From contig CP092877.1 of assembly GCA_030710605.1 (NCBI GenBank), positions 68,504,488 through 68,568,487 on the forward strand: 64,000 bases of DNA, given 5' to 3'. Source of the DNA: Cordylochernes scorpioides. Lineage: Eukaryota; Arthropoda; Arachnida; Pseudoscorpiones; Chernetidae. Position 1 is the first letter of the stretch. Each line of letters begins with the position of its first letter. The translations under genes were made by a program, and so were the position numbers. Below the pieces are notes generated by a model. It did no database searches. It saw only the letters and a program-made list of their open reading frames with translations, and was not told the DNA's origin. Shown here in pieces: positions 4,697-63,489 of the stretch.

Positions 4697-4790
4697 AATA
4701 TATTGTGAGAGCTTGGTTCATCAGTGGTGAATCTTTCCAGTGGTTTCACCAATTTGATCAAATCGGTGTATTGGTTGGAGAGATATATTC
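4697..4790 (-). mobile_element. MITE-B fragment
   Basis: A copy of the core of the MITE-B family. On the minus strand it reads TTGGT then GAAA (4752-4744), and later CTGATGA then ACCAA (4724-4713). The flanking pair TTGGT/ACCAA differs from the usual TTGGC/GCCAA but keeps complementarity. Confidence 0.6.
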
Positions 4791-24757: not shown

Positions 24758-24941
24758 TAAAGTTCCTCATGGCAACTCTACTGTAATACTATAAGGTGTG
24801 CTATAGGTGGTACATGTAGTTGAAAGTCCGTTGTTACAGCACCGCCAATGGAGTCTGGGCGAACACGTTAATTAGGAAGTCTATATATGAGTACTAAGGT
24901 TGAGTAAGTAGGGTAGAGGTTAGGGACTGGCTGCCACCTAC

Positions 24942-25166
24942 CGCAGCGGCCCTGGAAGCGGACCTCGATGGAGCGCATGTCGCGGCATGCCTGTCGCCGC
25001 AGCTCGCACTCGCTGGAGTAGTCGCGGCCGTCCGAGCCGCACACCGGCCGCTGGGGAGGTCCGGCACACCTCGCGGGGCACACACACTCAGCCGAGCGGC
25101 CATCCAGCGTCGCCTTGCACTCGGCGCCGTATAGACACTGCTTGCCTTCGCAGGGGTCCCGCGTAT
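24942..25166 (-). CDS. AGRN: agrin-like exon: follistatin/Kazal unit (first)
   Basis: 225 bp, exactly 75 codons, phase 1 at both ends. The minus-strand acceptor is GTAG (AG at 25168-25167) and the donor is GTAGGT (24941-24936). The translation carries ten cysteines: DPCEGKQC, then ECKATLDG, CVCPARC, PVCGSDGRDYSSEC, a helix ELRRQAC, and a final GRC. The GSDG-x-x-Y-x-x-EC core and the preceding EGF-like hook are the follistatin/Kazal signature, and the linker wording is closest to agrin. It is 5' of the 21047-21259 exon in transcription order. The acceptor's pyrimidine tract is weak, so the exact 5' boundary could differ by a few codons. Earlier exons (NtA or upstream units) were not found in the window. 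Confidence 0.75.
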
Positions 25167-25840
25167 CTACGCACACCGCAGTGTCAACGGACAGATGCCC
25201 AGGAATGTGTTGCTGACAAAGAATATTCAAGTGGTAGTGGGGTGGTTAACTAAACTGTACCAATGGTTAAAAACTTGAATTGAAGCCGTTTTTTTTTTCT
25301 TCAAAATAATATATCTCTTCAATGACTTTCAATCCTTGCGTCAATCCAACCCTACCAGTGCAAGTAAAGAAATGGCACAAGTACACTCTATAACTACATC
25401 TACGTAGATATGTATTTACTCTATACACAGTAGTTGCTAACCCTTCCTTACCTTCCATGATTATCGCAGCTTGTACCAAGTCTACATGGAATAAGTGACA
25501 GCAACAAACTTGCACCGGAATAAGCCGAAGATGGCTTTCAATGGTAAAACATGTTAATCTTTCTCATGTGCCCTTATGCAAATACTGTCCCATATATTGC
25601 CTTAATTGGGATGCTTTTACAGAAAAGAATGATGAGAAGCAACAAGATAACTAGATTTTTTGTAAAGAAATCTTTATAGGATACGCGAAAGTGTCCTCAA
25701 ACATATTCAAGCTGCTTCAAAATCCACAATGGTGTTGGGAGGGGGGTATGTAAATAGGTAAAAGTTGGCGGCCCTATCCCCGCGGCACGGAGTGGATCTA
25801 AGTATCGGGGAGTGAAACCTGATCTCACTGTCGCCAGTTA
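25167..25840. other. intron upstream of the agrin-like exon
   Basis: No recognisable exon or repeat. Confidence 0.3.
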
Positions 25841-31314: not shown

Positions 31315-34300
31315 ATGCTTCTGGGAGGTGTAGATTCTTGCAGCTCTTTTCTACAGCACTCAACATCTGGGAAGCGTAGATTCCTCCAGCTCTTTTTCTA
31401 CAGCACCGAACTTCTGGGAGGCGTTGATTCCTCCAGCTCTGTTTCTACCGCGCTGAACTTCTGGGAGGCGTTGATTCCTCCACTTCTGTTTCTACCGCGC
31501 TGAACTTCTGGGAGTCGTTGATTCCTCCAGCTCTGTTCCTACCGCGCTGAACTTCTGGGAGGCGTTGATTCCTCCAGCTCTGTTACAACCGCGCTGAACT
31601 TCTGGGAGGCGTTGATTCCTCCAGCTCTGTTACTACCGCGCTGAACTTCTGGGAGGCGTTGATTCCTCCAGCTCTGTTTCTACCGCGCTGAACTTCTGGG
31701 AAGCGTTGATTCCTCCAGCTCTGTTTCTACCGCGCTGAACTTCTGGGAGTCGTTGATTCCTCCAGCTCTGTTCCTACCGCGCTGAACTTCTGGGAGGCGT
31801 TGATTCCTCCAGCTCTGTTCCTACCGCGCTGAACTTCTGGGAAGCGTTGATTCCTCCAGCTCTGTTTTTACCGCGCTGAACTTCTGGGAGGCGTTGATTC
31901 CTCCAGCTCTGTTTCTACCGCGCTGAACTTCTGGGAGGCGTTGATTCCTCCAGCTCTGTTTACTACCGCGCTGAACTTCTGGGAGGCGTTGATTCTTTCA
32001 GCTCTGTTTCTACCGCGCTGAACTTCTGGGAGGCGTTGATTCTTTCAGCTCTGTTTCTACCGCGCTGAACTTCTGGGAGGCGTTTATTCTTTCAGCACTG
32101 TTTCTACCGCGCTGAACTTCTGGGAGGCGTTGATTCTTTCAGCTCTGTTTCTACCGCGCTGAACTTCTGGGAGGCGTTGATTCCTCCAGCTCTGTTTCTA
32201 CCGCGCTGAACTTCAGGGAAGCGTTGATTCCTCCAGCTCTGTTTCTACCGCGCTGAACTTCTGGGAGGCGTTGATTCCTCCAGCTCTGTTTCTACCGCGC
32301 TGAACTTCTGGGAGGCGTTGATTCCTCCACTTCTGTTTCTACCGCGCTGAACTTCTGGGAGGCGTTGATTCCTCCACTTCTGTTTCTACCGCGCTGAACT
32401 TCTGGGAGGCGTTGATTCTTTCAGCTCTGTTCCTACCGCGCTGAACTTATGGGAAGCGTTGATTCCTCCAGCTCTGTTTCTACCGCGCTGAACTTCTGGG
32501 AGGCGTTGATTCCTCCAGCTCTGTTTCTACAGCACTGAACTTCTGGGAGGCGTTTATTTCTCCAGCTCTGTTTCTACCGCGCTGAACTTCTGGGGGGCGT
32601 TGATTCCTCCAGCTCTGTTTCTACCGCGCTGAACTTCTGGGAGTCGTTGATTCCTCCAGCTCTGTTCCTACCGCGCTGAACTTCTGGGAGGCGTTGATTC
32701 CTCCAGCTCTGTTACTACCGCGCTGAACTTCTGGGGGGCGTTGATTCCTCCAGCTCTGTTTCTACCGCGCTGAACTTCTGGGAGGCGTTGATTCCTCCAG
32801 CTCTGTTTCTACCGCGCTGAACTTCTGGGAGGCGTTGATTCCTCCAGCTCTGTTTCTACCGCGCTGAACTTCTGGGAGGCGTTGATTCCTCCAGCTCTGT
32901 TTCTACCGCGCTGAACTTCTGGGAGGCGTTGATTCTTTCAGCTCTGTTTCTACCGCGCTGAACTTCTGGGAGGCGTTGATTCTTTCAGCTCTGTTTCTAC
33001 CGCGCTGAACTTCTGGGAGGCGTTGATTCCTCCAGCTCTGTTTCTACCGCGCTGAACTTCTGGGAGGCGTTGATTCCTCCAGCTCTGTTTCTACGGCGCT
33101 GAACTTCTGGGAAGCGTTGATTCCTCCAGCTCTGTTTCTACCGCGCTGAACTTCTGGGAGGCGTTGATTCCTCCAGCTCTGTTTCTACCGCGCTGAACTT
33201 CTGGGAGGCGTTGATTCCTCCAGCTCTGTTTCTACCGCGCTGAACTTCTGGAAAGCGTTGATTCCTCCAGCTCTGTTCCTACCGCGCTGAACTTCTGGGA
33301 GGCGTTGATTCCTCCAGCTCTGTTACAACCGCGCTGAACTTCTGGGAGGCGTTGATTCCTCCAGCTCTGTTACTACCGCGCTGAACTTCTGGGAGGCGTT
33401 GATTCCTCCAGCTCTGTTTCTACCGCGCTGAACTTCTGGGAGGCGTTGATTCCTCCAGCTCTGTTTCTACCGCGCTGAACTTCTGGGAAGCGTTGATTCC
33501 TCCAGCTCTGTTTCTACCGCGCTGAACTTCTGGGAGTCGTTGATTCCTTCAGCTCGTTTCTACCGCGCTGAACTTCTGGGAGGCGTTGATTCCTCCAGCT
33601 CTGTTTCTACCGCGCTGAACTTCTGGGAAGCGTTGATTCCTCCAGCTCTGTTTCTACCGCGCTGAACTTCTGGGAGGCGTTGATTCCTCCAGCTCTGTTT
33701 CTACCGCGCTGAACTTCTGGGAGGCGTTGATTCCTCCACTTCTGTTTCTACCGCGCTGAACTTCTGGGAGGCGTTGATTCTTTCAGCTCTGTTTCTACCG
33801 CGCTGAACTTCTGGGAGGCGTTGATTCTTTCAGCTCTGTTTCTACCGCGCTGAACTTCTGGGAGGCGTTGATTCTTTCAGCTCTGTTCCTACCGCGCTGA
33901 ACTTCTGGGAAGCGTTGATTCCTCCAGCTCTGTTTTCTACCGCGCTGAACTTCTGGGAGGCGTTGATTCCTCCAGCTCTGTTTCTACCGCGCTGAACTTC
34001 TGGGAAGCGTTGATTCCTCCAGCTCTGTTTCTACCGCGCTGAACTTCTGGGAGGCGTTGATTCCTCCATCTCTGTTTCTACAGCACTGAACTTCTGGGAG
34101 GCGTTGATTCCTCCAGCTCTGTTTCTACCGCGCTGAACTTCTGGGGGGCGTTGATTCCTCCAGCTCTGTTTCTACCGCGCTGAACTTCTGGGAGTCGTTG
34201 ATTCCTCCAGCTCTGTTCCTACCGCGCTGAACTTCTGGGAGGCGTTGATTCCTCCAGCTCTGTTACTACCGCGCTGAACTTCTGGGGGGCGTTGATTCCT

Positions 34301-34831
34301 CCAGCTCTGTTACTACCGCGCTGAACTTCTGGGAGGCGTTGATTCCTCCAGCTCTGTTCCTACCGCGCTGAACTTCTGGGAGGCGTTGATTCCTCCAGCT
34401 CTGTTTCTACCGCGCTGAACTTCTGGGAGGCGTTGATTCCTCCAGCTCTGTTTCTACCGCGCTGAACTTCTGGGAGGCGTTGATTCTTTCAGCTCTGTTT
34501 CTACCGCGCTGAACTTCTGGGAGGCGTTGATTCTTTCAGCTCGTTTCTACCGCGCTGAACTTCTGGGAGGCGTTGATTCCTCCAGCTCTGTTTCTACCGC
34601 GCTGAACTTCTGGGAGGCGTTGATTCCTCCAGCTCTGTTTCTACCGCGCTGAACTTCTGGGAAGCGTTGATTCCTCCAGCTCTGTTTCTACCGCGCTGAA
34701 CTTCTGGGAGGCGTTGATTCCTCCAGCTCTGTTACTACCGCGCTGAACTTCTGGGAGGCGTTGATTCCTCCAGCTCTGTTTCTACCGCGCTGAACTTCTG
34801 GGAGGCGTTGATTCCTCCAGCTCTGTTTCTA
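31315..34831 (+). repeat. 47-bp minisatellite, about 75 units
   Basis: Unit: TCTACCGCGCTGAACTTCTG, then GGAGGCGTTGATTCCTCC, then AGCTCTGTT (47 bp). The first units (31315-31400) are diverged, the interior is homogeneous, and the right edge is sharp at TTTCTAGACC. Variant units (TTTCAG, CCACTTCTG, GGGGGGCG, TTACAACC) recur in blocks. The array is GC-rich against AT-rich flanks, with no sustained ORF. Confidence 0.95.
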
Positions 34832-35319
34832 GACCCCTCAACCTCAGGACCAACTTATAGAGTTGGTTATATAACCAGTCTATTCCACGGATGCGGCCAA
34901 AAACGGGATATATGGCGATTGTACATCACGGAAATCTACACCCCCTTTTTTTATATTTATAAATCGCCGAGCCAAGTTATTCGAGACATTCGAGCCATAT
35001 TTAATGATGTGAAAAATGTCTAGCACTGTCTACTGCCTGCCCTTTCTTCTGGACTCAGAAACAACGCAGTTTATATTCTGATGGTAACGACAGAGAGGGC
35101 GGACTTTGTTGTCCAATCAAGGACTGGCATGACCGATATGTCCACTTCTTTCCTAAGTTGTTTGGACAATGTCAACGACCTGTTACACGACCTTTCATGA
35201 ATGCCGCCCTGTTCCAGTGGAGCTTTAATTTGACGTCATTTTAAAGTTACATCAGATGTCATTAAACGTCATCGAGGTACAAGAAATCGAACCATTTAAC
35301 GTACAGTTTTTAAATAATA
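34832..35319. other. unique spacer, no gene seen
   Basis: Moderate GC. TGACGTCA at 35231-35238. A 71-codon ORF at the array edge begins inside the last repeat unit and has no family. Confidence 0.25.
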
Positions 35320-35890
35320 CAATTTCTCCTTCTATACTGAAATGGCAAAATATTAGGAGAGCCTGGCTCATAAGTGACGAACGAGGTGTTGAGGTGTAGC
35401 CAGTTTAATCCACCGCTTTAATATTGTATTTGGTTATTCTGCTTATATATCCTGGACTTTAATTCTTCGTTGTGGTACAGTCATGGACAAAACTTAAAGA
35501 AGTGGAAAGTCTTTGAAGTCGCCAGTTGTCTGTTTTTTTTTTAAGGAGACAGAGGTTGTTCATACTTGGTTATCTCGTATGTCTTCAATAAAGGTCACGG
35601 TGTATCAGATAGCTTGTATATATCCCGATATATATGCTAAAAGGTAAGATTTCTTTAAGCTTTGTTTCCATGAGTGTATTCAATGAGACTATGGACATAT
35701 AATCTCCGAGTAATGTAGGAATCCTATAAATGTACTTTGTCGAGCAATACTCTTCAGCAAACCTTTCCACAGACAAACGCAACAACATCAATTAAACAAG
35801 AGCCATAGTTTCCCATCATAATAAGGACAGTAAGAAGTTATTTTGTTTGAAATCGCTCTAAATGGTTCCATTTCTTGATGGCGTGCTAAT
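35320..35890 (-). mobile_element. MITE-B copy split by MITE-A
   Basis: The left part (35320-35477) and right part (35677-35890) together match the MITE-B unit in reverse: the helix pair CTGGC/GCCAG, GAGCAATACTCTTCAGCAAA near 35743, and AAGGACAGTAAGAA near 35822. MITE-A copy 7 sits between them. Confidence 0.7.
35478..35676 (-). mobile_element. MITE-A copy 7, nested in MITE-B
   Basis: Left end CAGTCATGGACAAAACTTAA, right end TTTCCATGAGTG followed by TA. Inserted in an older MITE-B copy, which orders the two insertions in time. Confidence 0.85.
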
Positions 35891-38625: not shown

Positions 38626-41600
38626 CTACATTCCCAATCCAGCAACATGTTTATCATACAAGACTCTTGGCAGACCTTTAGTAAGGATGTCGGCAACATT
38701 TTCCTGGGTTGGTATGTGAACGACCTCGATAAGACCATCGCTGCAAATGCTTCTAATATAATGCCATTTGATGTCAATGTGTTTAGTTCTGGCATGATGG
38801 ACTGGATTTCTCGCCAGCTGTTGAGCGCCCTGGTTATCAGTCTTTAAAACCGTAGGTTCATTCAATAATTCACCAAATCCTATCTCATCCAACAGCGTTC
38901 TAAGATAGACTGCCTCCTTTCCCGCTTCACAAAGTGCTATGTACTCTGATTCCGTGCTCGAAAGAGCGACAGTCTGCTGCTTCTTCGATTCCCAAGCTAT
39001 TGGACCTCTTGCCAAGAAGAAAACAAGTCCCGTTTGAGACTTTCTATCCGCGAGGTTTCCACCCCAATCAGCGTCGACACAACCATAAAGGGTCTCATTA
39101 GTTTTCTCGTAAGTTATTTTCAAACATAAAGTGCCCTTTAGATAGCGGAGGACTCGCTTGGCCGCATTCCAGTGCTGTCTCCTAGGATCATTGCTGAATT
39201 GTCCCAAAGCACTAACCGCATAGGCTATATCAGGCCTTGTCGACACTGAAAGATATATTAACGATCCAATCAGTGATTGGTATTCTTCCTTTTTTACTGG
39301 CTCATTCTCACCCTCTATAGATGAAATCTTTGTTAACTTGGAGTTCGAATCCATGGGTGTAGAAATCGGCTTGGCCTCCTTCATTCTATATTTCGCCAGA
39401 AGTTCTTCAATATATTTCTCTTGATCTATGGATATTGAGCCATCCTTTTCCGTTTGTATTCTTATACCCAAACAATAATTTATCTTTCCAAGATCTTTTA
39501 TTTTGAATATCTTCTTCATACTTTCTTTAAAGGATATCAGCGTGTCTTTTCTTTCAGCTGCAATTATCAAATCATCAACATAGATTGTGACCAGAAGAAC
39601 TCCTTCTTCTCTTTTAATGTAGACACAGTTATCAGTTTTCATCTGTTCTAGGCCCATTTCTTTTAATACTGAATCGAGCTTTGCATGCCAAGTCATTCCA
39701 GCCTGTTTCAGACCATATATAGCCTTCTTTAGTTTACATACCCTTCTTGGATATTTCTTTGACTCGAAATTTTCTGGTTGTGTCATGTAAATTTCTTCTT
39801 TGACATCACCATTCAAGAAGGCAGACTGAACATCCATTTGATGGACCAGCAAATCATATTCAACGGCCAAGGCTAAAACTGTTCTGATCGTACTGTGGCG
39901 TACAACTGGTGCAAAGGTTTCCTCATAATCAATACCGTATTTTTGGGAATAACCTTTTGCTACAAGTCGAGCCTTATACCGTTCAAGAGAACCATCACTA
40001 CTATACTTTCTCCTGAATACCCATTTGCTTCCAATTACGTTTTGGCCCTTAGGGGGATCAACCAGTTCCCAAGTTTTGTTTTCAATCAATGAATCAAACT
40101 CCTCCTTCATTGCTTTCCTCCAAAAATAAGAATCTTTTCCAGACAGCGCTTCCTCTGCGTCTTTTGGATCTGGGGAGTACTTCACTTCTGAAAATTCTTG
40201 CGTGGATAAATTTGCCGTAGGATATTCCTTTCTTGGTCGGCCAGGTTTTCCCGTTCTAATATACCTTGGTCTTCCTCTTCCTATCTGCGAGATGACTTCC
40301 ATTGTTTCTGATGGTTCGCCTAAAAAATCCGAATCAGTTCCGGGCAAAGTGTTTTCATCATCCTGAAGACTTTCCTCCTCCAATGATATATCTACCTTTT
40401 TCTGTGGTATAGCTTCAATTTGCACCACGTCATTCCTAGAGGTAGAGTTTTCAGATTCGAGGAAACGTACATCTCGACTTTTTATCATCATGCCTGTTCC
40501 AGGCTTCCATAATCTGTACGCCTTTGATTCGGGAGAATAGCCAATCAGTCGGTATTCTTCACTGCGAGGAGCGAATTTTCCTCTTCTTGGACGGTTGTCA
40601 ACAGCGAAACATTTACATCCAATAATTCTTAAATGAGAAACGGTTGGTTTTCTTCCTGTAAATATTTCATACGGAGTTCGACTTTCATTAGTTCTTGGGC
40701 ATCTGTTTCTAATGTATGTAGATGTATGCACAAGTTCAGCCCAAAGTGGATCTGGGAGGTTCGCTTGAATTATGAAACATCTGGTCATTTCTACCAGAGT
40801 TCTGTTCGCTCTTTCAGCAACTCCATTTTGTTGCGGAGAATATTCAACTGAGAGCTGATGTCTAATTCCTTCCTCCGATAAATATTCTTTAAAATCTGAA
40901 CTCAAATACTCTGCGGCATTGTCACTTCTGATTGCTTTAATTTTCTTGCCAGTTTGTTTCTCAGCAAATCTTTTAAATAGTTTAAATCCTTTGAAAATTT
41001 CACTTTTTCTTTTCATAACAAAAGTGAATATCATTCGTGAGAAATCGTCAATAAATGTTGCGAAGTACAATGCACCGCCATATGACTTTGTTCTCATCGG
41101 TCCACATATGTCAGAATGAATAAGTTGCAGTGGCTCGGTTGACTTTGTCAGAGAGATTTCTGGGAATGGTAATCGAGTCTGTTTACCCCTAATACAAGTT
41201 TCACAACTTGTTATACTTTTAAATTCACCCTTGGGTAATCCATTAACTAAATTTTCTCTCTGCAATTTCCTAAGGTCATCAAAATTAAGATGACCAAACC
41301 TATTATGCCAAATTTCACTGCTATTTTTGTCTATACATATTCTGGTAAATTGCGTTTTTGCATATTTAGTTTGACGCAGTATGTAAAGTCCGTTTCTTTT
41401 GTAAGCTTCTATGCAAATTTTCCTCAATGGATTCACAATTTCCGCTTTTCCTCTCATAAATTTTACAAAAAATGATTTTTCTGTGCAGGTGCTGACCGAA
41501 ATCAAATTTCCCTTCAGTCCTGGGACAAACAACACATTTTCTAATTTCAATAAAAATGGTTCACCATGTTCGAGAACTTCCAATTGTACCGTTCCTGTAC

Positions 41601-42519
41601 CTAAAGCTTCTATGCTTTGGTCGTTCGCTAATTTAACGGGTATTGGCTCTGTTTCTCTTAAATCTGAAAATGCTGTTCTTAAGCAGCACATGTGTGCAGT
41701 TGCACCGCTATCCAGGCACCACTCGTTAACATCAAGAATATTTTCATCTCGAATTCCTAGAGAAGCAGCCATTCGCGTATTGTTTGTTCTAGAGTTCCTT
41801 TTTGACCAGCAGTCAGCCGCTTTGTGGCCTTTCTTGCCACAGTAATGGCAGTTAAATTTAAAATCCTTCCGAGTTGGTGGTTTAGTGGAATTGGTAGTTT
41901 TTCTTTCTGGATTTCCAAAAAATGCATTCTGTTCTCCAGACGAAGTTCCCTCCATTTCACGTTGTCTTTGATCTTCTTCTATGATCTTGACCTTTAAAGT
42001 TTCAAGTTTTGGGAGCTCATCTCTGGTTTCTATTGCAGTTCTGAATCCTTCGTACGATTCTGGAAGACTACACAACAAGAGTATAACTAAAAAGTCTTCG
42101 GGTACTTGAGCCCCAATTTCACCTAGATTGTCCACTAATGAGGTAAATTTACTCAGGTAATCTTTCAAATCATCATTAGGCCTCATTTTCATCTGTATTA
42201 GCCTTTTGGTTAGGGAAACTCTCGTCGCAGGTCCTTTAGGTCGATAAACTTCTTCTATCTTTTTCCAGGCCTCCTCGGCAGTCTTGCAATTCTTAACATG
42301 AACTAGTTCTGATGGATTCAAGCTCAATACAATTGTAGCAAGAGCCTTCTGATCCTTATTTTGCCAATTAGTAAACTCTTGGTTACCGGGTTCAGGTTTG
42401 ATATTGGCTTCATTCACATAAATCCACAGATCAGAGTGAACAAGAATCATTTGCATTTGAAGCCTCCATGTCTCAAAGTTTTGCTTATTCAACTTCTCAA
42501 TTTGATATAGACTGGACAT
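38626..42519 (-). CDS. copia Gag-Pol polyprotein, full length
   Basis: 1297 residues in one frame, the usual copia layout and length. In order: a Gag domain of the UBN2 type (about 1-200); a zinc knuckle C224-C227-H232-C237; aspartic protease with DSG at 270-272; integrase with the H405/H410...C439/C442 zinc site and catalytic D470, D533, E569 (35 residues between the last two, the DD35E spacing); reverse transcriptase from about 829, with YVDD at 980-983; and RNase H from about 1145, with TDNQG near 1228, ending in a typical copia tail. All catalytic motifs are present and no stop or frameshift interrupts them. The Met at 42519 is the first in frame, 46 bases inside the 5' LTR. Gag and Pol are a single frame as in Drosophila copia, where Gag excess is produced by splicing. 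Whether that happens here is not visible. The product acts in cytoplasmic particles and then in the nucleus at integration. Confidence 0.97.
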   Translation of the reverse strand: MSSLYQIEKLNKQNFETWRLQMQMILVHSDLWIYVNEANIKPEPGNQEFTNWQNKDQKALATIVLSLNPSELVHVKNCKTAEEAWKKIEEVYRPKGPATRVSLTKRLIQMKMRPNDDLKDYLSKFTSLVDNLGEIGAQVPEDFLVILLLCSLPESYEGFRTAIETRDELPKLETLKVKIIEEDQRQREMEGTSSGEQNAFFGNPERKTTNSTKPPTRKDFKFNCHYCGKKGHKAADCWSKRNSRTNNTRMAASLGIRDENILDVNEWCLDSGATAHMCCLRTAFSDLRETEPIPVKLANDQSIEALGTGTVQLEVLEHGEPFLLKLENVLFVPGLKGNLISVSTCTEKSFFVKFMRGKAEIVNPLRKICIEAYKRNGLYILRQTKYAKTQFTRICIDKNSSEIWHNRFGHLNFDDLRKLQRENLVNGLPKGEFKSITSCETCIRGKQTRLPFPEISLTKSTEPLQLIHSDICGPMRTKSYGGALYFATFIDDFSRMIFTFVMKRKSEIFKGFKLFKRFAEKQTGKKIKAIRSDNAAEYLSSDFKEYLSEEGIRHQLSVEYSPQQNGVAERANRTLVEMTRCFIIQANLPDPLWAELVHTSTYIRNRCPRTNESRTPYEIFTGRKPTVSHLRIIGCKCFAVDNRPRRGKFAPRSEEYRLIGYSPESKAYRLWKPGTGMMIKSRDVRFLESENSTSRNDVVQIEAIPQKKVDISLEEESLQDDENTLPGTDSDFLGEPSETMEVISQIGRGRPRYIRTGKPGRPRKEYPTANLSTQEFSEVKYSPDPKDAEEALSGKDSYFWRKAMKEEFDSLIENKTWELVDPPKGQNVIGSKWVFRRKYSSDGSLERYKARLVAKGYSQKYGIDYEETFAPVVRHSTIRTVLALAVEYDLLVHQMDVQSAFLNGDVKEEIYMTQPENFESKKYPRRVCKLKKAIYGLKQAGMTWHAKLDSVLKEMGLEQMKTDNCVYIKREEGVLLVTIYVDDLIIAAERKDTLISFKESMKKIFKIKDLGKINYCLGIRIQTEKDGSISIDQEKYIEELLAKYRMKEAKPISTPMDSNSKLTKISSIEGENEPVKKEEYQSLIGSLIYLSVSTRPDIAYAVSALGQFSNDPRRQHWNAAKRVLRYLKGTLCLKITYEKTNETLYGCVDADWGGNLADRKSQTGLVFFLARGPIAWESKKQQTVALSSTESEYIALCEAGKEAVYLRTLLDEIGFGELLNEPTVLKTDNQGAQQLARNPVHHARTKHIDIKWHYIRSICSDGLIEVVHIPTQENVADILTKGLPRVLYDKHVAGLGM

Positions 42520-42551
42520 GCTTAATTCTTAATTTTCTTAGACAATCAGTC

Positions 42552-45461: not shown

Positions 45462-45573
45462 ACAAGGTAATAAAACCAAATATAAATAAATAAATAGTGT
45501 CTGAAGATGGTAACAACACTGTTACCGAAACACGTCACACACTATTTATTTGGGTTTGGTTTTATTACCTTGT
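45462..45573 (+). ncRNA. hammerhead-like fold-back, variant core
   Basis: Core: CTGAAGA (45501-45507), one extra T, stem II GGTAACA/TGTTACC (45509-45515 with 45520-45526), GAAA (45527-45530), and a potential AC/GT helix III closing at GTC (45534-45536). The outer helix I is very long: ACAAGGTAATAAAACCAAA and AAATAAATAGTGT (45462-45500) pair with 45537-45573. The extra base between CTGANGA and stem II departs from the consensus, so cleavage is uncertain. Confidence 0.45.
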
Positions 45574-45764
45574 ATTTAAAATACTTTGTTAGTTTTGTAA
45601 TAATGTTTAAAGAATTGTTTCCTGTATATACATATTGTTTCCTTCCGGCAAAATTTCCATCTATATTTTAGCCATAGATATGGCCCAGCCACTTTGCCAG
45701 CTAAACACCTCTTTGGCAGATTGTCAAGATTCCATTAGATCCCGTGTGGATCTCATGGAATAAA

Positions 45765-45819
45765 GTCCGCCCTAGACTGACGAGGGCCATTAGCCCGAAA
45801 ACATGGTCTCTAGGTGGAC
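45765..45819 (+). ncRNA. type I hammerhead ribozyme motif, Penelope-like
   Basis: Helix I: GTCC (45765-45768) with GGAC (45816-45819) and CCTAGA (45771-45776) with TCTAGG (45809-45814), separated by a small internal loop. Core CTGACGA at 45777-45783, stem II GGGC/GCCC (45784-45787 with 45793-45796) and GAAA at 45797-45800. One additional A precedes a 2-bp helix III (AC/GT) that ends at GTC (45806-45808). Predicted cleavage is after 45808. Hammerheads of this open-helix-I type with a minimal helix III are known in Penelope-like elements. The extra A makes activity less certain than at 52383. Confidence 0.6.
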
Positions 45820-46426
45820 GCTTTTCAGTTTGCCAAAGCTGCTGTTGTGGCTTTGTCACCGACCCGAGGCTGCTAGTTGCGGCGACGGTCAATATATGAC
45901 GTCTGGTTTTAGACGTCTATTTTGACGGGAGAGGCGACCCTTGTCTCTTCAGATATTGTTACTGATTACAACAGGAGCCGGTTATCATTGCTAAGAAGAG
46001 ACAAAAGCTGACGGGGTCAAGTTTCGTTATTTAAAAGATAGAAGCGAGTTTTCGGACAATAACCTCCTTCAACAGGCTGCAATACCATAAACTAGAAAAT
46101 AAAGAAATAATATATATTTAGTAATTTACATAAGTAGAAATATTTTACAAAATTATTGATTATTATTTTAATTTTTTGGTGAAATAAAATGTTGCATACA
46201 GATTTGTTATGGACTTTGAAAAGAAAAATAAATAAATAGGATTCTATAAAAGCAGGAATTATGAGATTTTTTCAAACACAGAAGAAAATAAGAGGGAAGT
46301 TCAGAGATTGGGAGATGTCAATGAATGGAGACAGATTGGGAGCTGTTCTGATGGAGATGTGAAGGGAGGTCAGTTAACCGTTGAGTTGTTGAGGTGAAGA
46401 CTTTTAGGAAGAGATACTGTTGTTTC
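45820..46426. other. Penelope-like flank and spacer
   Basis: 45840-45900 (GCTTTGTCACCGACCCG..., GGTCAATATATGACG) recurs in reverse at 61252-61312. A CCTTCAACAGG motif is at 46064-46074. The rest has no assignment. Confidence 0.35.
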
Positions 46427-48639: not shown

Positions 48640-48740
48640 CCTTTTGGTCGTAGAGGTACAGTCTGCACCACGTTGACGAAGGTCAACAGCCCGAAACGCG
48701 TGCTTGGTTGGCTTTTCTAGATATATCAAGGGATGATGTT
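48640..48740 (+). ncRNA. decayed Penelope-like hammerhead copy
   Basis: Aligns with 52365-52465 (TGGTCGTAGAGGTACAG, GCACCACG, AACAGCCCGAAACGCGT). The core is TTGACGA (48673-48679) instead of CTGANGA, stem II has mismatches, and GTC at the cleavage site has become GTG. It should be inactive. Confidence 0.55.
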
Positions 48741-50452
48741 TTTCTGGTTAACATTCTGTGGAATGATATTCAATAAACGAGTAGTTGATATATTGTGGCT
48801 AAGAAATAATGTGATAATTTATATTATTATTTGTATTGAGGTGTAATTTATTTTAATTATTCAATGAAAATACAGCAGAATATAACTATTTATTTTTGAA
48901 ATCATCATAACTTGTTTTCCATAACTTGTTTTCTCAATGTTCTCTAGCTGTAAATTCAGGAAGACACAAATAACAACCACCTTCTCTTAAAATGCCCCAC
49001 CTACCACCTTCATAGGTTCCAAAGAGCCACCCTCCTAGGAATATTTACCTCTAAAGACCTACAGAACCAAGTACAGTATATCTGATAAACTGGATGTCCA
49101 TCATTAGACGTCTCAACCTAGATAGTTGATGACTGTGGTACGTGGTGGCTCCAGGAATCTGGGTTACCTCAAGACATAGATATTTGTAAATCTTTAGTGG
49201 AATTCTAGTCGCTTAGTTGTACTGACGTAACACATAAATAATCCATCATCTAATTTATCTGTCTAGACATTCATTACTACGCTACAGTATATTCTGATAA
49301 ATGGTGTCATCAATGTTCAGTTACAAGATCCAATAAATATTCTGTTATATATATATATTATTTCAAAATGGTTGTACCGTAAAATGTACCGTGTGTATAT
49401 CTAAACAACCCGAAAGTTTAAATCGCCATGTTTCTATATTAAACCTGAAATGTATTTATTAAAATACGACACAGGAAAAGGAAATAAATTCAAACAACAG
49501 CAGCTGTAATACGACTACGTATAACTTGTACGATATAACAACGGCTGCTGGGGAACATTGAAAGCTTCCTCGTAGAAAGAAAACATTGCTGTCACCGTGA
49601 AATACGGCCTTTTTTGGAAGGCAATTTTAAGATCCAGATGTAAAGAAGTTTGCCCCGCACCGTTTGTTTCTGTTATTTGGACTGAGCTAATCGTTTTGTT
49701 CAGGGAACGCCATAAAACAAATGGAGGCCTTCTGAAGTTCGCTCCAACGGGGAAATGATTAGCGCGTGCTAAATAGGCTGAAAATATGTCGTTACCCCCT
49801 TTTCCCGAAATTAATAAGAAAAACAAACTTCTTTTTAGGATGCTAAATGTCGTTTAGGTCAAGCTTAGTAAGGTTGAAAACATAAGTTAATATACACTGC
49901 CTTGTGTAATTTTCTAGAAACTAATAGAGACTTGACACGAAATTGCTGACATTTTGAGAAGAAAGGCAATATAGAATTAGTGTTTAATGTATTATGTCCG
50001 CATCAACTAATAATTTATTCAATTCTGTGAGAATTAAATAAATTATTAGAATTGATGTCGCTGTATTTTTTTCAAACCAACTTCCAACCAACAAATGGAT
50101 CTTTCAAAGTATTATGCCCAATTATAAATCGATAATATTTGCATATTAAAACTTTATACACATATCGTGCATTAATTTACATAGGGAATGCATTTAACAT
50201 TATGTGAACGAAACTTTGTTAAAATATGAAAAAGGATAGTTGTATTTATTGGCAATATCAATAAGTTCCCTGTAAATTGTAGACTGGTTCATTAAAAGTA
50301 AATTTAGCGCCCGCATATTGTTGGCATTTACTGAACTAACTGTACAAATGTCCAACTAACGATTCAACATCAGTAAAGGTGAAACAACCTTACTAATGAT
50401 GATAAAGAATGAGTATCAACACCAGTTTAGGCAAATTCAGACAAAAATCCAA
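48741..50452. other. spacer; hairpin at 50001-50056
   Basis: No gene supported. The minus-strand 103-codon ORF at 49515-49826 lies in a GC-richer, repeat-free patch but has no recognisable domain. 50001-50056 is a near-perfect hairpin (CATCAACTAATAATTTATTC and its inverse). Confidence 0.3.
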
Positions 50453-50495
50453 CCTATATACCGTGGTTTCGGGCTTTGGCCTTCCTCAGTACAGG
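50453..50495 (-). ncRNA. type I hammerhead ribozyme motif, minus strand
   Basis: On the minus strand: helix I CCTGTA (50495-50490) with TATAGG (50458-50453, one G-U), core CTGAGGA (50489-50483), stem II GGC/GCC (50481-50479 with 50474-50472) with an A-C mismatch at its base, GAAA (50470-50467), and helix III ACC/GGT with a 2-base loop. The cleavage triplet is GTA, predicted cut after 50459. All invariant core bases are present. The base-pair mismatch next to the core (10.1/11.1) would probably weaken activity. Confidence 0.55.
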
Positions 50496-50744
50496 GGTAG
50501 TTATTCTCTATCATCACTAGCTAAGTAATTTACTAGGGTGATACACAGTGCATCGTTCTGATGTACAATTAAAGGGAGAGGTGCCTCTTTTGGTGTATAT
50601 ATATTGAACGAATTAACCAGGAAATATCTAGGTTTTATCCGAGTTGAATTTTCCCCGAGGGCATATAGAATAAACAGTTATTTTTTTAATATCATAAAAT
50701 AAATGAAGTTTCCAGGGTTAAGTTTCTTGACAACCTTTTATTTT

Positions 50745-51565: not shown

Positions 51566-52364
51566 ATATTAATAAATAATAACGAGTAATTTATTATATA
51601 AAAAATATAATTTCAGGTTCCTTTTGTTGAACGGCACTTAGTCAATTTGAACTGAAACCTCTGTAATACGATAATGGAATAGACTCGTGATTGATGAACA
51701 ACAACAAGAGGAATTACATAAAAGTGAATCAAGGCAGCACAAAAACTAATTCCTTTAATCCAACATCAATTTACAAAAAGGGATTGATTTAAAAAGAAAA
51801 AAAAAAAAGAAATAATCAGAATTCCCAATTGTACCAGGACGTCCTTCTAAACAAACATCCTATAAGAAATAGTAATAATAAAAACTAACAACATCCGAAG
51901 TAATTACTGATAGTTAAGGCGAGAGAGAGATAGTTAAAACTAGTAGTGAAACGGTCGATTTCATACTATTAATAGCAATGTGTGTAATTTCTGCCCTTGT
52001 GACCTTTCAAATTAACGACCTCATCTTTTTCCACGACTGCTTTAACTATTAAGATTGGATTTCTCCAACTTTTAACTACATTTGTCTCTTTTTTTATAGT
52101 TAGGAATTACGGGTAGGAATTACTAATAGCAAACCTATTTATTGATATAATCATCTCTTTACTATTTTATTTGGGAGGTTAAAAATGAGAGATTTTAACT
52201 CTTCCGGATTGTCTGTTGGTTTGTTTGTGTTGTTTACTAGTTGTCTGTCTGTCTAGAGAAATATTTAATTCTTCTAATGATGATATAGAGGAAGGGTAAT
52301 ATGGAAGATTCAGTACATCTATACCAATTCTTTGGTTCTTTAACATGTATTGATCCGTTTTTTT
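51566..52364. other. AT-rich spacer, nothing recognised
   Basis: No gene or repeat seen. Confidence 0.3.
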
Positions 52365-52382
52365 TTTTGGTCGTAGAGGTAC

Positions 52383-52436
52383 AGCTTGCACCACGCTGAT
52401 GAGGGCCAACAGCCCGAAACGCGTCCGTGGTTAGCT
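52383..52436 (+). ncRNA. hammerhead ribozyme, type I, apparently complete
   Basis: Every invariant element is present in order. Helix I: AGCT (52383-52386) with AGCT (52433-52436), an internal loop TGCA/TT, then CCACG (52391-52395) with CGTGG (52426-52430). Core CTGATGA at 52396-52402. Stem II GGGC/GCCC (52403-52406 with 52412-52415, loop CAACA). GAAA at 52416-52419. Helix III is the minimal palindrome ACGCGT (52419-52424), followed by C52425, so the cleavage triplet is GTC and the predicted cut is between 52425 and 52426. The internal loop in helix I is where natural hammerheads make tertiary contacts with the stem II loop. Minimal helix III and open helix I are characteristic of Penelope-like retroelement hammerheads, which often act as dimers. 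No Penelope ORF is attached here, so it is a solo terminal-repeat remnant. Confidence 0.8.
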
Positions 52437-52516
52437 TTTCTTGATTAATCAAGAATGGGTATTTGGCCAATTCTGGAATAATTAAAAATCAACCAGAATA
52501 CTTGATATTTATTCCG

Positions 52517-52578
52517 ATAGATGGCGCAAGCCATCAGCAACTTTCAGTTGCACGATAAGGAGATGCCTTTTTCTTAAT
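52517..52578 (+). repeat. single arm of the fold-back element of 991-1121
   Basis: GATAGATGGCGCAAGCCATC then CAACTTTCAGTTGCACGATA, about 85 to 90 percent like one arm at 1063-1121. Lies 80 bases downstream of the hammerhead. Confidence 0.75.
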
Positions 52579-53439
52579 ATATATATATATATTAAGAGAA
52601 ACTTGTGAATTAATTAAAACAATATATCAGTGTGGTACGAGACATATTTAGTTCTAACAAACATATCAGTAATTATTTTCAAACATTCAGAACAAAATAA
52701 GTAAAGATACGTTAGGTTTTTAACGAAATAAATAACAAGAACTAATGAGATGCCAAGTAATTTAGCAAATGTACGGACTTTTTAAAATGCCATTTCAATG
52801 ATTATCGAGTTTTATTTATTTCTCAAAGTTTACGGACCATTACTGTAATTTACTCGGCCCACAGCATATCTCCACACGTGGTAAGCACGGAGATATCTCT
52901 TTAGGAGTTTTACACATTATATAGAAATGAAGTTATGGGCGCGATGGGACAGAATGTCAACATTGAATCCTATTTTATAATAAAGAGATTCCGCAAAACT
53001 CCATCGACATATATTTAAACCTTGTAAGCTTTCGAGTCAAATATATTTCTCAGCAATATACCTGTAACATGCTTTGTATTTATTTATGTAAAATATTTAA
53101 TAATTTTTAAAATTTTTATTCATAGTTAGGCAGTCGGCAATACTCTACTTTCTTTTCATTTTTTAATTTTGCATAAGTTTTGTTTATATATTGTGGTTAA
53201 ACTTGTTGTAATTGAATTAAATATTATACTATATATATTATATTTATAAACACAAAGTATTGTGACTATCCCTTATTTCTAAATTGGAAACGTTACAATA
53301 CCTAAACATCCTTACTTTAGATAATAAATAATACTCACGATTTTTTTAATTCTATAAATCATACAAACTCGTTCTCTTGATGTAACTCCTGGAGCGTATT
53401 AAAGGCGCCAACTATCTGAATGAACTTTCTACTGCCCTT
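52579..53439. other. AT-rich spacer, nothing recognised
   Basis: No gene or shared repeat. Confidence 0.3.
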
Positions 53440-53615
53440 ACTGTCTTTTATAAATTACTTAAATATTACTCTAGTGTCCTTACTGCGATTAAATACATAT
53501 TGCGAGAGAGAGTTTGGCTCATCAGTGGTCAACCCTCCCATCGAGTTTCTTAAATTATTTTTTTCATCCCAGTAAGTACAGTAGAAAGTAGATGGCGTGT
53601 TTTGTGTTTACTAAT
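53440..53615 (-). mobile_element. MITE-B fragments, rearranged
   Basis: TTTGGCTCATCAGTGG...AACCCTCCCA (53514-53541) is the reversed core. The following TTTTCATCCCAGTAAGTACAGTAGAA and AGATGGCGTG are in the opposite relation. The helix partner of GCCAA is lost. Confidence 0.5.
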
Positions 53616-53862: not shown

Positions 53863-54520
53863 TGGCAAATTATTTAGCGTGTTTTATCCTGTAGAAGGGC
53901 ATTTTGTGCTGAAAGCGAGAGATTTGTGAATTAAAATGTTTTAAAAAAATTTATCCTTGGAAGACTGATGCTTTTACCTTAATACTTGGTACAAGGGGTT
54001 GTTTTATTGAAGTCAACTTTTATATTTACTGTGTTATCACACTTGTTAATAAGTAATTCTAAAATGCCAAGCTATTTCTATCCAAAGTAAAATGTAGAAT
54101 TCCTTCTGAAAACTAGAAAGCTCCGAATTCACACAAGCTCTGGAAATATTGCGAGGAAATTTTAGATAATTGACATTCTAATAATTTCACCTCTAAAATT
54201 TAATAACCCTAAATATTGTCTTTGCTCTTTATTCTTGTGACTAAATGAAAATATTTAGTAAACTTATTTGAACCCATTTCTTAAAAATAAAGAACAATTT
54301 TAGTAAATCTATCAACGGAAGAGACAAAATTTTTGGAAAGGCTTTTTATTATAGAAAATTGTTTTGTTTAGAAAATTGAAGAAAAAATCCAATAATATAC
54401 CCAACACAATGTTTTCACTTTGGATTAAGTAACTCATCTTAAATATGTCATCCCCTACACTTTGGATTGGGGAGTCCAACGTATGGTTCCAATTACACTC
54501 TAAATCTAGAAGAAATGGAA
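53863..54520. other. spacer, mostly unassigned
   Basis: Apart from the short Penelope-like motif at 53885-53925, nothing recognised. Confidence 0.3.
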
Positions 54521-54524
54521 GCAT

Positions 54525-54840
54525 TAAAGCACGAATGTTTCTTTTTAAATTAAAACAAACTTCTACTGTCCTTACCGCGATGAAAAAATATTGGGAGGGA
54601 TTGGCTCATCAGTGGTGAACCCTCCCTGCGGTTTCGCTAAATTTAATCTATCAAACCGCTTCTTAGAGCTCTAATACTGTATTGGGCGATATTTTCTGCC
54701 TATATATGCTGAAATGAAGGGTGGAATCTTAAAAATGGTTTTCAAGAAAAACTATGTACATACGCTTTTAGGACAGTAGAATTATATATAATATTTGTTC
54801 GAGCAATGCTCTTCCGCAAACAATAAGTACAAAACCATCT
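54525..54840 (-). mobile_element. MITE-B copy
   Basis: Starts GCATTAAAGCACGAATGTTTC (TIR), then the reversed core with TTGGC (GCCAA) and TAGC-GAAA (one mismatch in the helix), and GAGCAATGCTCTTCCGCAAA near 54803. Confidence 0.7.
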
Positions 54841-55075: not shown

Positions 55076-55359
55076 AATTTATATCCAGGAGAATTTAAAA
55101 AATAAAGTAAAAATCTTACAAATATGACTTATCTAAGTTAGACCCTTCTTATAAAATTCAAAAATCTCTGTACCATTCGCAAAAATACCAGTCACTCGAA
55201 TACACCATTATATTCATCAACTTGGCGACATCTATAGTTGGAACTTGTCACTAAATTTTAATGAAAATTTTGGGACTATATAATTTTTAAAACCTATTTA
55301 TTACAGACCGTATACTGATAATGATTAAAACATTGAGAAAGGTACACCCTGGCACCCAG
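55076..55359. other. spacer, nothing recognised
   Basis: No feature. Confidence 0.3.
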
Positions 55360-55404
55360 ATTAAACTGGCAAAACCGCTGAGAGGTTCCACCACCGATGA
55401 GCCA
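55360..55404 (+). mobile_element. MITE-B core fragment
   Basis: AGATTAAACTGGCAAAACCG...CACCGATGAGCCATG. It abuts MITE-A copy 12. Confidence 0.5.
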
Positions 55405-57400: not shown

Positions 57401-57431
57401 TGTATATGTGGATATGTATAAATATATAGAA

Positions 57432-57800
57432 AATTAGAGCATTAAAACACGAATGTTTCTTTTACCCATAAAACAAACTTTCTACTGTCCTTAATGCGAT
57501 GAAAAAATATATTGGGAGAGCTTGGCTCATCAGTGGTGAACCTTCTAGCGGTGTTTCGCCAATTTAATCTACCAGAACGCTTCTTTATAGCTCTAATACT
57601 GTATTGGACGATTCTTCTTATATATGCTGGGTGTGCACTGAAAGGTGGAATCTCAGAAATGGCTTCAAGCAAACTATGGACATAAGATTTTTTTAAAGGT
57701 ATAATTACATATAAAGAACAGTAGAGAGAACTTTTGTTTTATTTGTAAAAGAAACTTTCGCGTTTTAACGCTTTCATGTTCTATATATAGATGGCGCGTT
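57432..57800 (-). mobile_element. MITE-B copy with both terminal repeats
   Basis: The left TIR (AGCATTAAAACACGAATGTT, TCTTTTACCCATAAAACAAA) is inverted at 57712-57775 (GTTTTATTTGTAAAAGAAAC, TTTCGCGTTTTAACGCT). This shows the family has TIRs of about 55 bp. The core on the minus strand is TTGGC-GAAA...CTGATGA-GCCAA. Confidence 0.75.
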
Positions 57801-58514
57801 ATTGCTTTATATATGTAAATATGTAAATTGAAAGAAACTCTTTGTCACGGCAATAATTCGTATTTCGAAAAATCTGGTGTGATCTAACAGCCATTTGATA
57901 TGGAATATATATTATCCACTTTAACAAAATAATATAATTGAATTATCTAGGGGGGGGGAGAATATATATGCAAATTGATTTAGGAGGCTAACACACACCC
58001 AGAGTCTACGAATGTAGACCCTATCTACCAGCTTCGATGCTACTGTGACTCAAGTGTCGCCTCTCCATAATAAGAAGAGATTTCATTAATTCTAATTGGT
58101 CGTAAATGGAGAGGCCTCGAGCCAGCCAATAGCAGCGACCGCCTAATCTCTTCATCTTTTAAAAGCTCCCGGGCGAAAAGGAAAACACAGCAAACTCAGC
58201 CGTTACTAGGATTTAGCTACTGGCCACGCGGAGTGATTCTCAACACTGATGTTGAAACTTTGATATGCACATCACGGAGTTTTGTTTAAGTCAACAATAT
58301 ATATTAGGCTTGATGTATTGTTATGGAGTCTACTTAACTCAAACGTCGTAATAACGGGAAACAGTTTTATGGCTTTTTATTTATATAGGAAATTCACAAC
58401 ACGCTTCTCCCCTTTCAGCTGTAGCAACTAAGTCAGCTTGACGGGAAAAAAAACACATATTCAAAGTTAAGTTGTTAACATCAACCAATCTGCGTCTCTG
58501 AAAATATGTAAATA
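57801..58514. promoter_or_regulatory. unique block with possible promoter elements
   Basis: Around 58130-58200 there is CAGCCAATAGC (CCAAT box), CTTTTAAAAGC about 25 bases later, and CTCAGCCGTTAC about 35 bases further on. The spacing is promoter-like, but no gene follows that I can recognise. Weak evidence. Confidence 0.2.
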
Positions 58515-61314: not shown

Positions 61315-63489
61315 GACAATGGCGAGGACTGTCTTGGGAGCGGTGTACGGACATCCGAGCTATGTGGCAGACAATGGCGAGGAGTATCCTGGGAGCGGTG
61401 TACGGACATCCGAGCTATGTGGCAGACAATGGCGAGGAGTATCCTGGGAGCGGTGTACGGACATCCGAGCTATGTGGCAGACAATGGCGAGGAGTATCCT
61501 GGGAGCGGTGTACGGACATCCGAGCTATGTGGCAGACAATGGCGAGCAGTATCCTGGGAGCGGTGTACGGACATCCGAGCTATGTGGCAGACAATGGCGA
61601 GGACTGTCCTGGGAGCGGTGTACGGACATCCGAGCTATGTGGCAGACAATGGCGAGGAGTATCCTGGGAGCGGTGTACGGACATCCGAGCTATGTGGCAG
61701 ACAATGGCGAGGACTGTCCTGGGAGCGGTGTACGGACATCCGAGCTATGTGGCAGACAATGGCGAGGACTGTCCTGGGAGCGGTGTACGGACATCCGAGC
61801 TATGTGGCAGACAATGGCGAGGAGTATCCTGGGAGCGGTGTACGGACATCCGAGCTATGTGGCAGACAATGGCGAGGACTGTCCTGGGAGCGGTGTACGG
61901 ACATCCGAGCTATGTGGCAGGCAATGGCGAGGACTGTCCTGGGAGCGGTGTACGGACATCCGAGCTATGTGGCAGACAATGGCGAGGACTGTCCTGGGAG
62001 CGGTGTACGGACATCCGAGCTATGTGGCAGACAATGGCGAGGACTGTCCTGGGAGCGGTGTACGGACATCCGAGCTATGTGGCAGACAATGGCGAGGACT
62101 GTCCTGGGAGCGGTGTACGGACATCCGAGCTATGTGGCAGACAATGGCGAGGACTGTCCTGGGAGCGGTGTACGGACATCCGAGCTATGTGGCAGACAAT
62201 GGCGAGGAGTATCCTGGGAGCGGTGTACGGACATCCGAGCTATGTGGCAGACAATGGCGAGCAGTATCTTGGGAGCGGTGTACGGACATCCGAGCTATGT
62301 GGCAGACAATGGCGAGGACTGTCCTGGGAGCGGTGTACGGACATCCGAGCTATGTGGCAGACAATGGCGAGGAGTATCCTGGGAGCGGTGTACGGACATC
62401 CGAGCTATGTGGCAGACAATGGCGAGGACTGTCCTGGGAGCGGTGTACGGACATCCGAGCTATGTGGCAGACAATGGCGAGGAGTATCCTGGGAGCGGTG
62501 TACGGACATCCGAGCTATGTGGCAGACAATGGCGAGCAGTATCCTGGGAGCGGTGTACGGACATCCGAGCTATGTGGCAGACAATGGCGAGGACTGTCCT
62601 GGGAGCGGTGTACGGACATCCGAGCTATGTGGCAGACAATGGCGAGGACTGTCCTGGGAGCGGTGTACGGACATCCGAGCTATGTGGCAGACAATGGCGA
62701 GGACTGTCCTGGGAGCGGTGTACGGACATCCGAGCTATGTGGCAGACAATGGCGAGGACTGTCCTGGGAGCGGTGTGCGGACATCCGAGCTATGTGGCAG
62801 ACAATGGCGAGGACTGTCCTGGGAGCGGTGTACGGACATCCGAGCTATGTGGCAGACAATGGCGAGGAGTATCCTGGGAGCGGTGTACGGACATCCGAGC
62901 TATGTGGCAGACAATGGCGAGGACTGTCCTTGGAGCGGTGTACGGACATCCGAGCTATGTGGCAGACAATGGCGAGCAGTATCCTGGGAGCGGTGTACGG
63001 ACATCCGAGCTATGTGGCAGACAATGGCGAGGACTGTCCTGGGAGCGGTGTACGGACATCCGAGCTATGTGGCAGACAATGGCGAGGACTGTCCTGGGAG
63101 CGGTGTACGGACATCCGAGCTATGTGGCAGACAATGGCGAGGAGTATCCTGGGAGCGGTGTACGGACATCCGAGCTATGTGGCAGACAATGGCGAGGACT
63201 GTCCTGGGAGCGGTGTACGGACATCCGAGCTATGTGGCAGACAATGGCGAGGAGTATCCTGGGAGCGGTGTACGGACATCCGAGCTATGTGGCAGACAAT
63301 GGCGAGGACTGTCCTGGGAGCGGTGTACGGACATCCGAGCTATGTGGCAGACAATGGCGAGGACTGTCCTGGGAGCGGTGTACGGACATCCGAGCTATGT
63401 GGCAGACAATGGCGAGGACTGTCCTGGGAGCGGTGTACGGACATCCGAGCTATGTGGCAGACAATGGCGAGGAGTATCCTGGGAGCGGT
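61315..63489 (+). repeat. 55-bp minisatellite, exactly 40 in-register units
   Basis: Unit GGCGAGGACTGTCCTGGGAG, CGGTGTACGGACATCCGAGC, TATGTGGCAGACAAT. Unit starts fall at 61321 + 55n through 63466 with no indel. Three main variants occur: GGACTGTCCTG, GGAGTATCCTG and GCAGTATCCTG. No stop trinucleotide exists on the plus strand, so all three frames are open for over 700 codons. These are repeat artefacts, not genes. Confidence 0.97.

Follow-up and report, generated by a model that had tools for sequence, protein, structure and literature searches.

Type I and type-SGC hammerhead motifs in two probable retrozyme families of the pseudoscorpion Cordylochernes scorpioides

This analysis concerns 64,000 nucleotides of the genome of the pseudoscorpion Cordylochernes scorpioides (assembly GCA_030710605.1, contig CP092877.1, positions 68,504,488 to 68,568,487, forward strand). 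This whole stretch is called the window, and coordinates are counted from its first letter. Two kinds of hammerhead ribozyme motif were found in it: a type I motif at 52383-52436, within a fragment of a short repeat, and a type-SGC motif, recurring in a tandem array at 11588-12818. The larger result is the array, which lies outside 52383-52436 and represents a second, far more abundant family. We consider it very likely that the two repeats are families of non-coding, non-autonomous retrozymes, one with a type I and one with an SGC hammerhead, which cut themselves, are circularised and are copied by Penelope-like priming from two ends. The features that carry this argument are the following.

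52383..52436 (+): type I hammerhead, block order C-G-S, predicted cut 52425/52426, C at position 17 (from sequence, descriptor against null, and covariation)
52362..52592 (+): truncated 231-bp monomer of a type I retrozyme whose unit measures ~340 bp; its borders are the ends of genome matches
48642..48730 (+): decayed copy of the type I ribozyme, 86.5% identity (alignment and core check)
11588..12818 (+): retrozyme-like 372-bp repeat in tandem, 3.3 units, carrying a type-SGC hammerhead
11917..11982 (+): type-SGC hammerhead of unit 1, predicted cut 11922/11923 (descriptor)
12291..12355 (+): type-SGC hammerhead of unit 2, predicted cut 12296/12297 (descriptor)
12663..12728 (+): type-SGC hammerhead of unit 3, A at position 17, predicted cut 12668/12669 (descriptor)

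The motif at 52383-52436 has the CUGANGA, GAAA and UH core and three stems in type I (CGS) order. CTGATGA occupies 52396-52402, GAAA 52416-52419, and C17 is found at 52425. Stem II pairs GGGC with GCCC (52403-52406/52412-52415) and helix III is the palindrome ACGCGT at 52419-52424. The initial annotation had described this complete core with its stem II and short palindromic helix III, and all the bases it listed are present; its cleavage position agrees with ours. In helix I, the four outer pairs (52383-52386/52433-52436) beyond an internal loop were also confirmed, while the inner pairs number six (52390-52395/52426-52431) instead of five. The pattern CTGATGA-GAAAC-GTC occurs once in the window, compared with a mean of 0.07 in 100 shuffles, seven of which contained at least one. 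Furthermore, a stem-aware type I descriptor matches the window at this motif only, and its means were 0.05 and 0.03 per simulated window (60 windows for each of two models). A chance origin was rejected on these counts. The folding energy is unexceptional (z = -0.71) and says little alone. As homologous copies exist in the same genome, doubt about the motif is removed. We read it from its letters as an intact, well-preserved type I hammerhead for which self-cleavage is predicted. Taken alone, it is an ordinary addition to an already known group.

The copy had been regarded as a solo one. This view no longer holds, given the decayed homologue at ~48642-48730, in which C3 has become T and C17 has become G, with one mismatch in helix I and one in stem II. 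In addition, a 116-base query around the 52383 motif gave at least 42 genome matches, the window copy included, with 40 of 542 candidates scored. In the same 2.62-Gb genome (24 contigs), the family occurs elsewhere as head-to-tail tandem units of ~338-351 bp. At one locus (L154) the units start at 1163, 1501 and 1840, 338 and 339 bp apart. At another (L126), which represents a subfamily about 80% identical, four units start at 1691, 2042, 2393 and 2743, 350-351 bp apart, the last being cut by the locus end. Both loci hold non-coding units in tandem, each with a single type I hammerhead and each within the 150-450 bp range of published retrozymes. The sequence gives the 52383 family the anatomy of metazoan non-LTR retrozymes (LTR, long terminal repeat), the window copy itself being a truncated monomer whose 3′ end reads CTTAAT and then (TA)n. 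Because this copy is truncated and single, its own transcript could cut itself once at most.

Pairing in the type I stems survives changes on both sides. An alignment of 34 ribozymes (25 distinct) combines the two window copies with 32 of 38 loci (L121-L158, of which L124, L129, L131, L132, L147 and L156 are absent). Of the 34 copies, 28 have an intact core, including an A, C or U at position 17; as the 34 are the best-scoring genome matches plus the two window copies, the share applies to them alone. Paired cells amount to 97.8%, compared with 92.2% in shuffles and at most 41% in slid versions. Cells changed on both sides number 17, as against 3.5 in shuffles. The covariation score of 0.174 (0.072 in shuffles) was reached by none of 500 shuffles, and we conclude that the 34 copies covary.

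The SGC hammerhead was spotted by inspecting every CTGANGA site of the window. The array carries an S block (GCGGU-C), a G block (UGGUGGAUU-AAA-UUGGC-GAAA-CCGC) and a C block (GGGAGGG-UUCACCA-CUGAUGA-GCCAA-G-CCCUCCC). This S-G-C order is a non-circular, pseudoknotted permutation of the hammerhead blocks. In the corresponding fold, two hairpins, formed by stem III and by a stem bridging I and II, have loops that pair with each other via stems I and II. The hammerhead of the third unit (12663-12728) closes in this SGC topology with six pairs in stem III, seven in stem I, five in stem II and seven in the bridge. The SGC descriptor found the three window copies and nothing in 160 simulated windows. 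Pseudoknot-free folding of the region predicted the two hairpins with some extra inner pairs (z = -2.99). A 374-nt monomer folded as a circle showed no unusual stability (z = -0.58). At unit positions ~324-331 (in 12297-12668) lies a TATAAAAG box, a candidate internal promoter, whose start precedes the predicted SGC cut by about 49 nt.

In the genome, the 372-bp unit has at least 149 matches (40 of 2763 candidates scored), and the full-length ones show 97-100% identity. Pattern searches, which count exact matches and not working ribozymes, gave 45,104 hits for the G block joined to the C block (stem II left partly open), 41,707 for the S block joined to the G block and 25,275 for the G and C blocks of one subfamily. 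The reversed control gave 0 in each case. Further patterns had no match in the viral or bacterial/archaeal contigs searched. Another pattern matched at least 120 stretches of viral contigs and is uninformative on SGC. Descriptor matches in three viral contigs were set aside: those in L024 and L081 are, by eye, ordinary type II hammerheads (block order GSC) with a chance S-like stretch, and that in L118 is weak. The type I and SGC units show no clear similarity (best stretch 18 bp, E = 0.026), so that descent of one from the other is unsupported.

Diverged members of the SGC family also lie in the window.

57422..57808 (both strands): diverged SGC insertion, a head-to-head pair with arms 57422-57710 (-) and 57714-57808 (+)
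54498..54832 (-): diverged SGC-family copy with the ribozyme region; stem I weakened
4693..4759 (-): diverged SGC-family fragment, S block decayed
35308..35453 (-): SGC-family fragment, diverged, with a broken core and a compensated pair in stem II (GCCAG:CTGGC)
53444..53587 (both strands): SGC-family fragments, 53444-53538 (-) and 53559-53587 (+)
55359..55404 (+): SGC-family fragment, decayed blocks

At 4693-4759, stem II reads ACC:GGT where the array has GCC:GGC, which is again a compensated pair. Compensated changes in stems II and III are found in some diverged copies. At the fifth pair of stem II, among 100 rows listed of the 45,104 G-and-C matches, all 48 with U have A opposite, and 49 of the 52 with C have G opposite, the other three having A.

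The manner in which both families are inserted was studied in 30 of the 116-base-query matches taken as type I loci (L129-L158) and in 30 SGC loci (L161-L190), the latter covering 18 sites. Head-to-head pairs number 19 in the type I loci and 11 distinct ones in the SGC loci; a further SGC pair (L162/L163, with ends at unit positions u148 and u179) is cut by locus ends and stands outside the 11. The unidirectional SGC arrays are that of the window, with its 3′ end at u152, and L161, L165, L169, L177, L182 and L185. In 10 of the 11 SGC pairs the outer ends fall at u145-153 on one side and at u173-184 on the other, the exception being L186 (178 and 202). For type I, 11 of the 19 pairs end at u208-230 and u258-266. 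The end ranges of both families were chosen after the ends were seen. Under this two-end rule one arm is the longer, the difference being about 32 bp in SGC and 46 bp in type I. Target duplications of at least 7 bp flank 7 of the 11 SGC pairs, compared with 8% when flanks are re-paired at random, and 4 of the 19 type I pairs, compared with 7%. Lastly, SGC tandem runs of up to 5.4 units extend across the site at which their ribozyme would cut. Unless unequal exchange lengthened the DNA later, a circle or an uncut multimer probably served as template.

Inverted arms, a tail, fixed 3′ ends and duplications together form the signature of Penelope-type integration, which is present in both families and weaker in type I than in SGC. 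The Penelope-like enzyme of Anolis cuts AT-rich sites on both strands, extends the two strands, and starts at two places on the RNA. Genomic copies carry the stretch between these places as a 'tail' of 30-40 bp (Frangieh et al. 2024, PMC11167929). Rotifer Penelope copies form inverted repeats, mostly head-to-head, with an optional 31-bp tail on one and with duplications of 8-10 bp where present (PMC3846280; this paper, PMC7229834 and PMC10085705 are cited here from sections of their text). The likeness therefore extends to two start sites, head-to-head arms, an optional tail, AT-rich targets and short duplications. In contrast to these elements, the retrozymes measure ~340-372 bp and encode no protein, and their end spacing is 32 bp (SGC) or 46 bp (type I). 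Since the insertions carry this signature, a Penelope-like enzyme probably moves both retrozymes. The signature is the best evidence for that view.

What the sequence itself shows is the motifs with their stems, the units in tandem, the counts of patterns, the preference for certain ends, the inverted arms and some target duplications. From these we infer cleavage, circularisation, the identity of the enzyme and present-day activity. Transcripts of tandem units would, in both families, cut themselves once per unit, and a host ligase would close the monomers into circles. A reverse transcriptase would then copy the circles from either of two fixed internal sites, using as primers the two 3′ ends left by a staggered break in an AT-rich target. 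Such two-end priming at two fixed sites would yield head-to-head inverted multimers with unequal arms, one being longer, sometimes with short flanking target duplications. We also find it fairly probable that the SGC permutation does its work within a mobile element of the genome that has tens of thousands of copies, and that both families, whose ribozymes differ in topology and whose units have no detected common ancestry, are copied from circles by one Penelope-like kind of machine, with two fixed start sites and with both ends of the target break as primers.

Several results weigh against this proposal. The Rfam covariance-model check suggested in the initial annotation was negative: in the window tRNA alone reaches its gathering score, and no family does so at 52383-52436. 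The top permissive match there (52380-52445) is Hammerhead_HH9. It scores 26.5 bits where the gathering score is 52, with E = 0.00038 for 1 kb searched and 0.003 for 8 kb. The gathering score is a practical test outside the definition of type I, in which membership rests on core, stems and covariation. On the 11588-12818 array, no hammerhead family of Rfam appears at all. The 52383 element is represented by one truncated monomer, and all units of the window's SGC array point the same way. Some type I statistics are also ordinary, as the four pairs changed on both sides are equalled by 25 of 500 shuffles and the ten further pair types by 198 of 500. Among the type I insertions, 8 of the 19 pairs break the two-end rule (L140, L141, L143, L144, L145, L148, L149 and L158, the last with ends at 253 and 209); L140/L145 and L144/L148 each look like copies of one event. 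Three of the four type I duplications of at least 7 bp are plain TA repeats.

The statistics of the SGC stems add to these points. Covariation was scored on 21 SGC copies, mainly from 45 distinct sequences and picked for divergence (19 are diverged). It is modest, 0.163 compared with 0.134 ± 0.011 in shuffles, and 5 of 500 shuffles reach it; a one-column slide scores 0.152. Nine pairs changed on both sides, a number reached by 159 of 500 shuffles. Paired cells make up 79% as against 77.5% in shuffles, and a core base is broken in 12 of the 21 copies. The switch of the fifth stem II pair amounts in essence to one ancestral event between two subfamilies. At the first pair, a count by eye of the 100 rows listed gives five wobbles and eight mismatches, and compensated changes are absent. 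The fifth pair of stem I has A opposite C in the second subfamily. In 33 full young units, 7 of 2211 ribozyme cells differ, compared with 79 of 10098 elsewhere (p = 0.016). The units had been selected for intact CTGATGA and GAAAC, and we therefore dropped this low variation as evidence; without the 12 columns fixed by selection it is not significant (p = 0.07; variable sites p = 0.69).

The most serious alternative to two-end priming on a circle is that the inverted pairs and tandems arose by template jumping, self-priming or recombination between neighbouring copies. Self-priming was earlier blamed for the inverted repeats of Penelope (PMC3846280), the eight type I pairs mentioned above break the two-end rule, and unequal exchange can also lengthen tandem DNA. 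Such routes are set against 10 of 11 SGC pairs with one arm at each fixed end and 7 of 11 with target duplications, and we judge them possible, though clearly less likely than two-end priming.

A further alternative holds that the 372-bp array is a plain satellite, in which the S-G-C hammerhead is a coincidence of three short motifs. This would agree with the blindness of Rfam to the array, where the ribozyme is predicted from sequence alone, with the modest covariation of the 21 copies and with a low ribozyme variation that is non-significant once corrected. A coincidence is improbable in the face of four stems of 5-7 pairs that close in the published SGC topology, a combination absent from the 160 simulated windows. 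Compensated changes affect stems II and III in diverged copies and stem II between the two subfamilies, and the insertion signature is the same as that of the type I retrozyme.

Three readings fare worse still. The initial annotation had placed the 52383 motif in a Penelope-like element, of whose pseudo-LTR it would be the hammerhead. The short palindromic helix III is in line with this, minimal type I hammerheads do occur in Penelope-like elements (PMC7229834), and the family insertions bear the Penelope-type signature. It was found instead that the motif sits in a fragment of a ~338-351 bp tandem unit, and a unit of ~340 bp could not accommodate a reverse transcriptase. At 48.5-52.7 kb there are two open frames of at least 100 amino acids, both lacking a Pfam match, and in the 21 of 29 window open frames of that length submitted to Pfam, reverse transcriptase was found only in a Copia element at 38626-42528. 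A Penelope-like element as the carrier is thus very unlikely, and the link to Penelope survives in the integration signature. It is very unlikely, too, that the SGC repeat is an ordinary nested hammerhead built from blocks of neighbouring units in a multimer. Judging from the sequence, successive units could supply the blocks in canonical order, yet this arrangement needs loops of ~300 nt, whereas all four stems, the bridge included, can close locally within ~66 nt. Lastly, a single domesticated hammerhead in a host transcript, like HH9 of amniotes, is hardly credible: HH9 is the best Rfam match, though its 26.5 bits fall below the gathering score, but the motif is one of many near-identical dispersed copies, an HH9 search of the genome gave 54 matches at E ≤ 1 with none above the cut-off, and at least one locus from that search (L126) is a tandem repeat.

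The two families, read as retrozymes, can be compared with published systems. In metazoan non-LTR retrozymes (Cervera and de la Pena 2020, PMC7229834), non-coding tandem units of 150-450 bp are low in G+C and carry a single type I hammerhead; the same paper names Penelope-like elements as a strong candidate for moving them. The 52383 family resembles them in its non-coding tandem units of this size, its low G+C, its hammerhead and its dispersed copies. The 372-bp family differs in carrying an SGC hammerhead instead of type I, and the ends of the inverted pairs seen here have no counterpart in the sections of that paper compared.

For type-SGC hammerheads and HRIMA-1, our sole source is Eckert et al. 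2023 (PMC10085705), in a literature search that left out most subscription papers. In the sections of that work cited here, nearly all motifs are exclusive to metatranscriptomes, and genomes of known organisms provide one GCS candidate only. The likeness covers the block order, all core bases, the stem III hairpin and the short linker between stems I and II (AAA here). It also includes an extra stem that links stems I and II on their other sides. The family described here differs by its tens of thousands of genomic copies inside a retrozyme and by a stem I of seven pairs (nine with end wobbles), unlike that of Eckert et al. in the sections compared. Hammerhead_HH9 (RF02275) shares with the 52383 motif the type I layout and is the best Rfam match at 52380-52445. 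The score is half the gathering score, and helix III and the loops are unlike.

Besides these features, the window contains other hammerhead-related motifs and fragments.

990..1138 (both strands): head-to-head inverted pair of 5′-truncated type I retrozyme pieces (BLAST and sequence)
45757..45827 (+): related hammerhead of type I with CTGACGA as its core (45777); pairing judged by eye
50443..50511 (-): related type I hammerhead, core CTGAGGA at 50489, A at position 17 (pairs read by eye)
45470..45585 (+): minimal motif resembling a hammerhead, within a long hairpin; CTGAAGA core at 45501 (by eye)
3085..3160 (+): minimal hammerhead-like motif in a long hairpin, core CTGACGA at 3102 (by eye)

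The arms of the first match at 1058-990 and 1063-1138 (BLAST, query 51700-53200), with both 3′ ends outward; the feature can be described as a palindromic repeat made of two retrozyme 3′ ends. For the two related type I hammerheads, pairs were read by eye, MAFFT having misaligned their S block. Their helix I strands are unlike those of the 52396 motif, yet they pair. One mismatch is found elsewhere in each: an A.G in helix III beside A15.1:U16.1 at 45757-45827, and an A.C as the first stem II pair at 50443-50511. The two minimal motifs, of which that at 3085-3160 has ACGT as a zero-loop helix III, were missed by the strict type I descriptor. They are presumably of the kind carried by Penelope-like elements. 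At 8062 and 15109, two similar stretches with CTGATGAGGGCCACAATGTCAGC have no GAAA block and are perhaps hammerhead relics in a repeat.

The remaining contents of the window are of other kinds.

38626..42528 (-): open frame of 1300 amino acids, Copia-type LTR retrotransposon; Pfam domains for gag, integrase and reverse transcriptase
1..699 (-): open frame cut by the window edge, with weak Ty3/Gypsy-type gag matches
24871..25245 (-): open frame, probably an exon, encoding a Kazal-type serine protease inhibitor domain
31318..34831: long minisatellite, 47-bp unit, 74.8 copies
61315..63489: long minisatellite, 55-bp unit, 39.5 copies; three frames are open over ~730-800 amino acids
45111..45345: inverted repeat with sub-threshold RF02625 (WsnRNA46) matches on both strands; more likely a small inverted-repeat transposon

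The type-SGC hammerhead, which in the sections of PMC10085705 cited here its discoverers did not find in genomes of known organisms, here has a host genome and a mobile element. The family at 11588-12818 makes the role and home of the S-G-C hammerhead a testable question. The same applies to the question of which enzyme moves retrozymes, as fixed ends, inverted arms and duplications correspond to the published Penelope signature. Furthermore, two SGC subfamilies and many copies offer natural material for structural and kinetic work on a pseudoknotted hammerhead.
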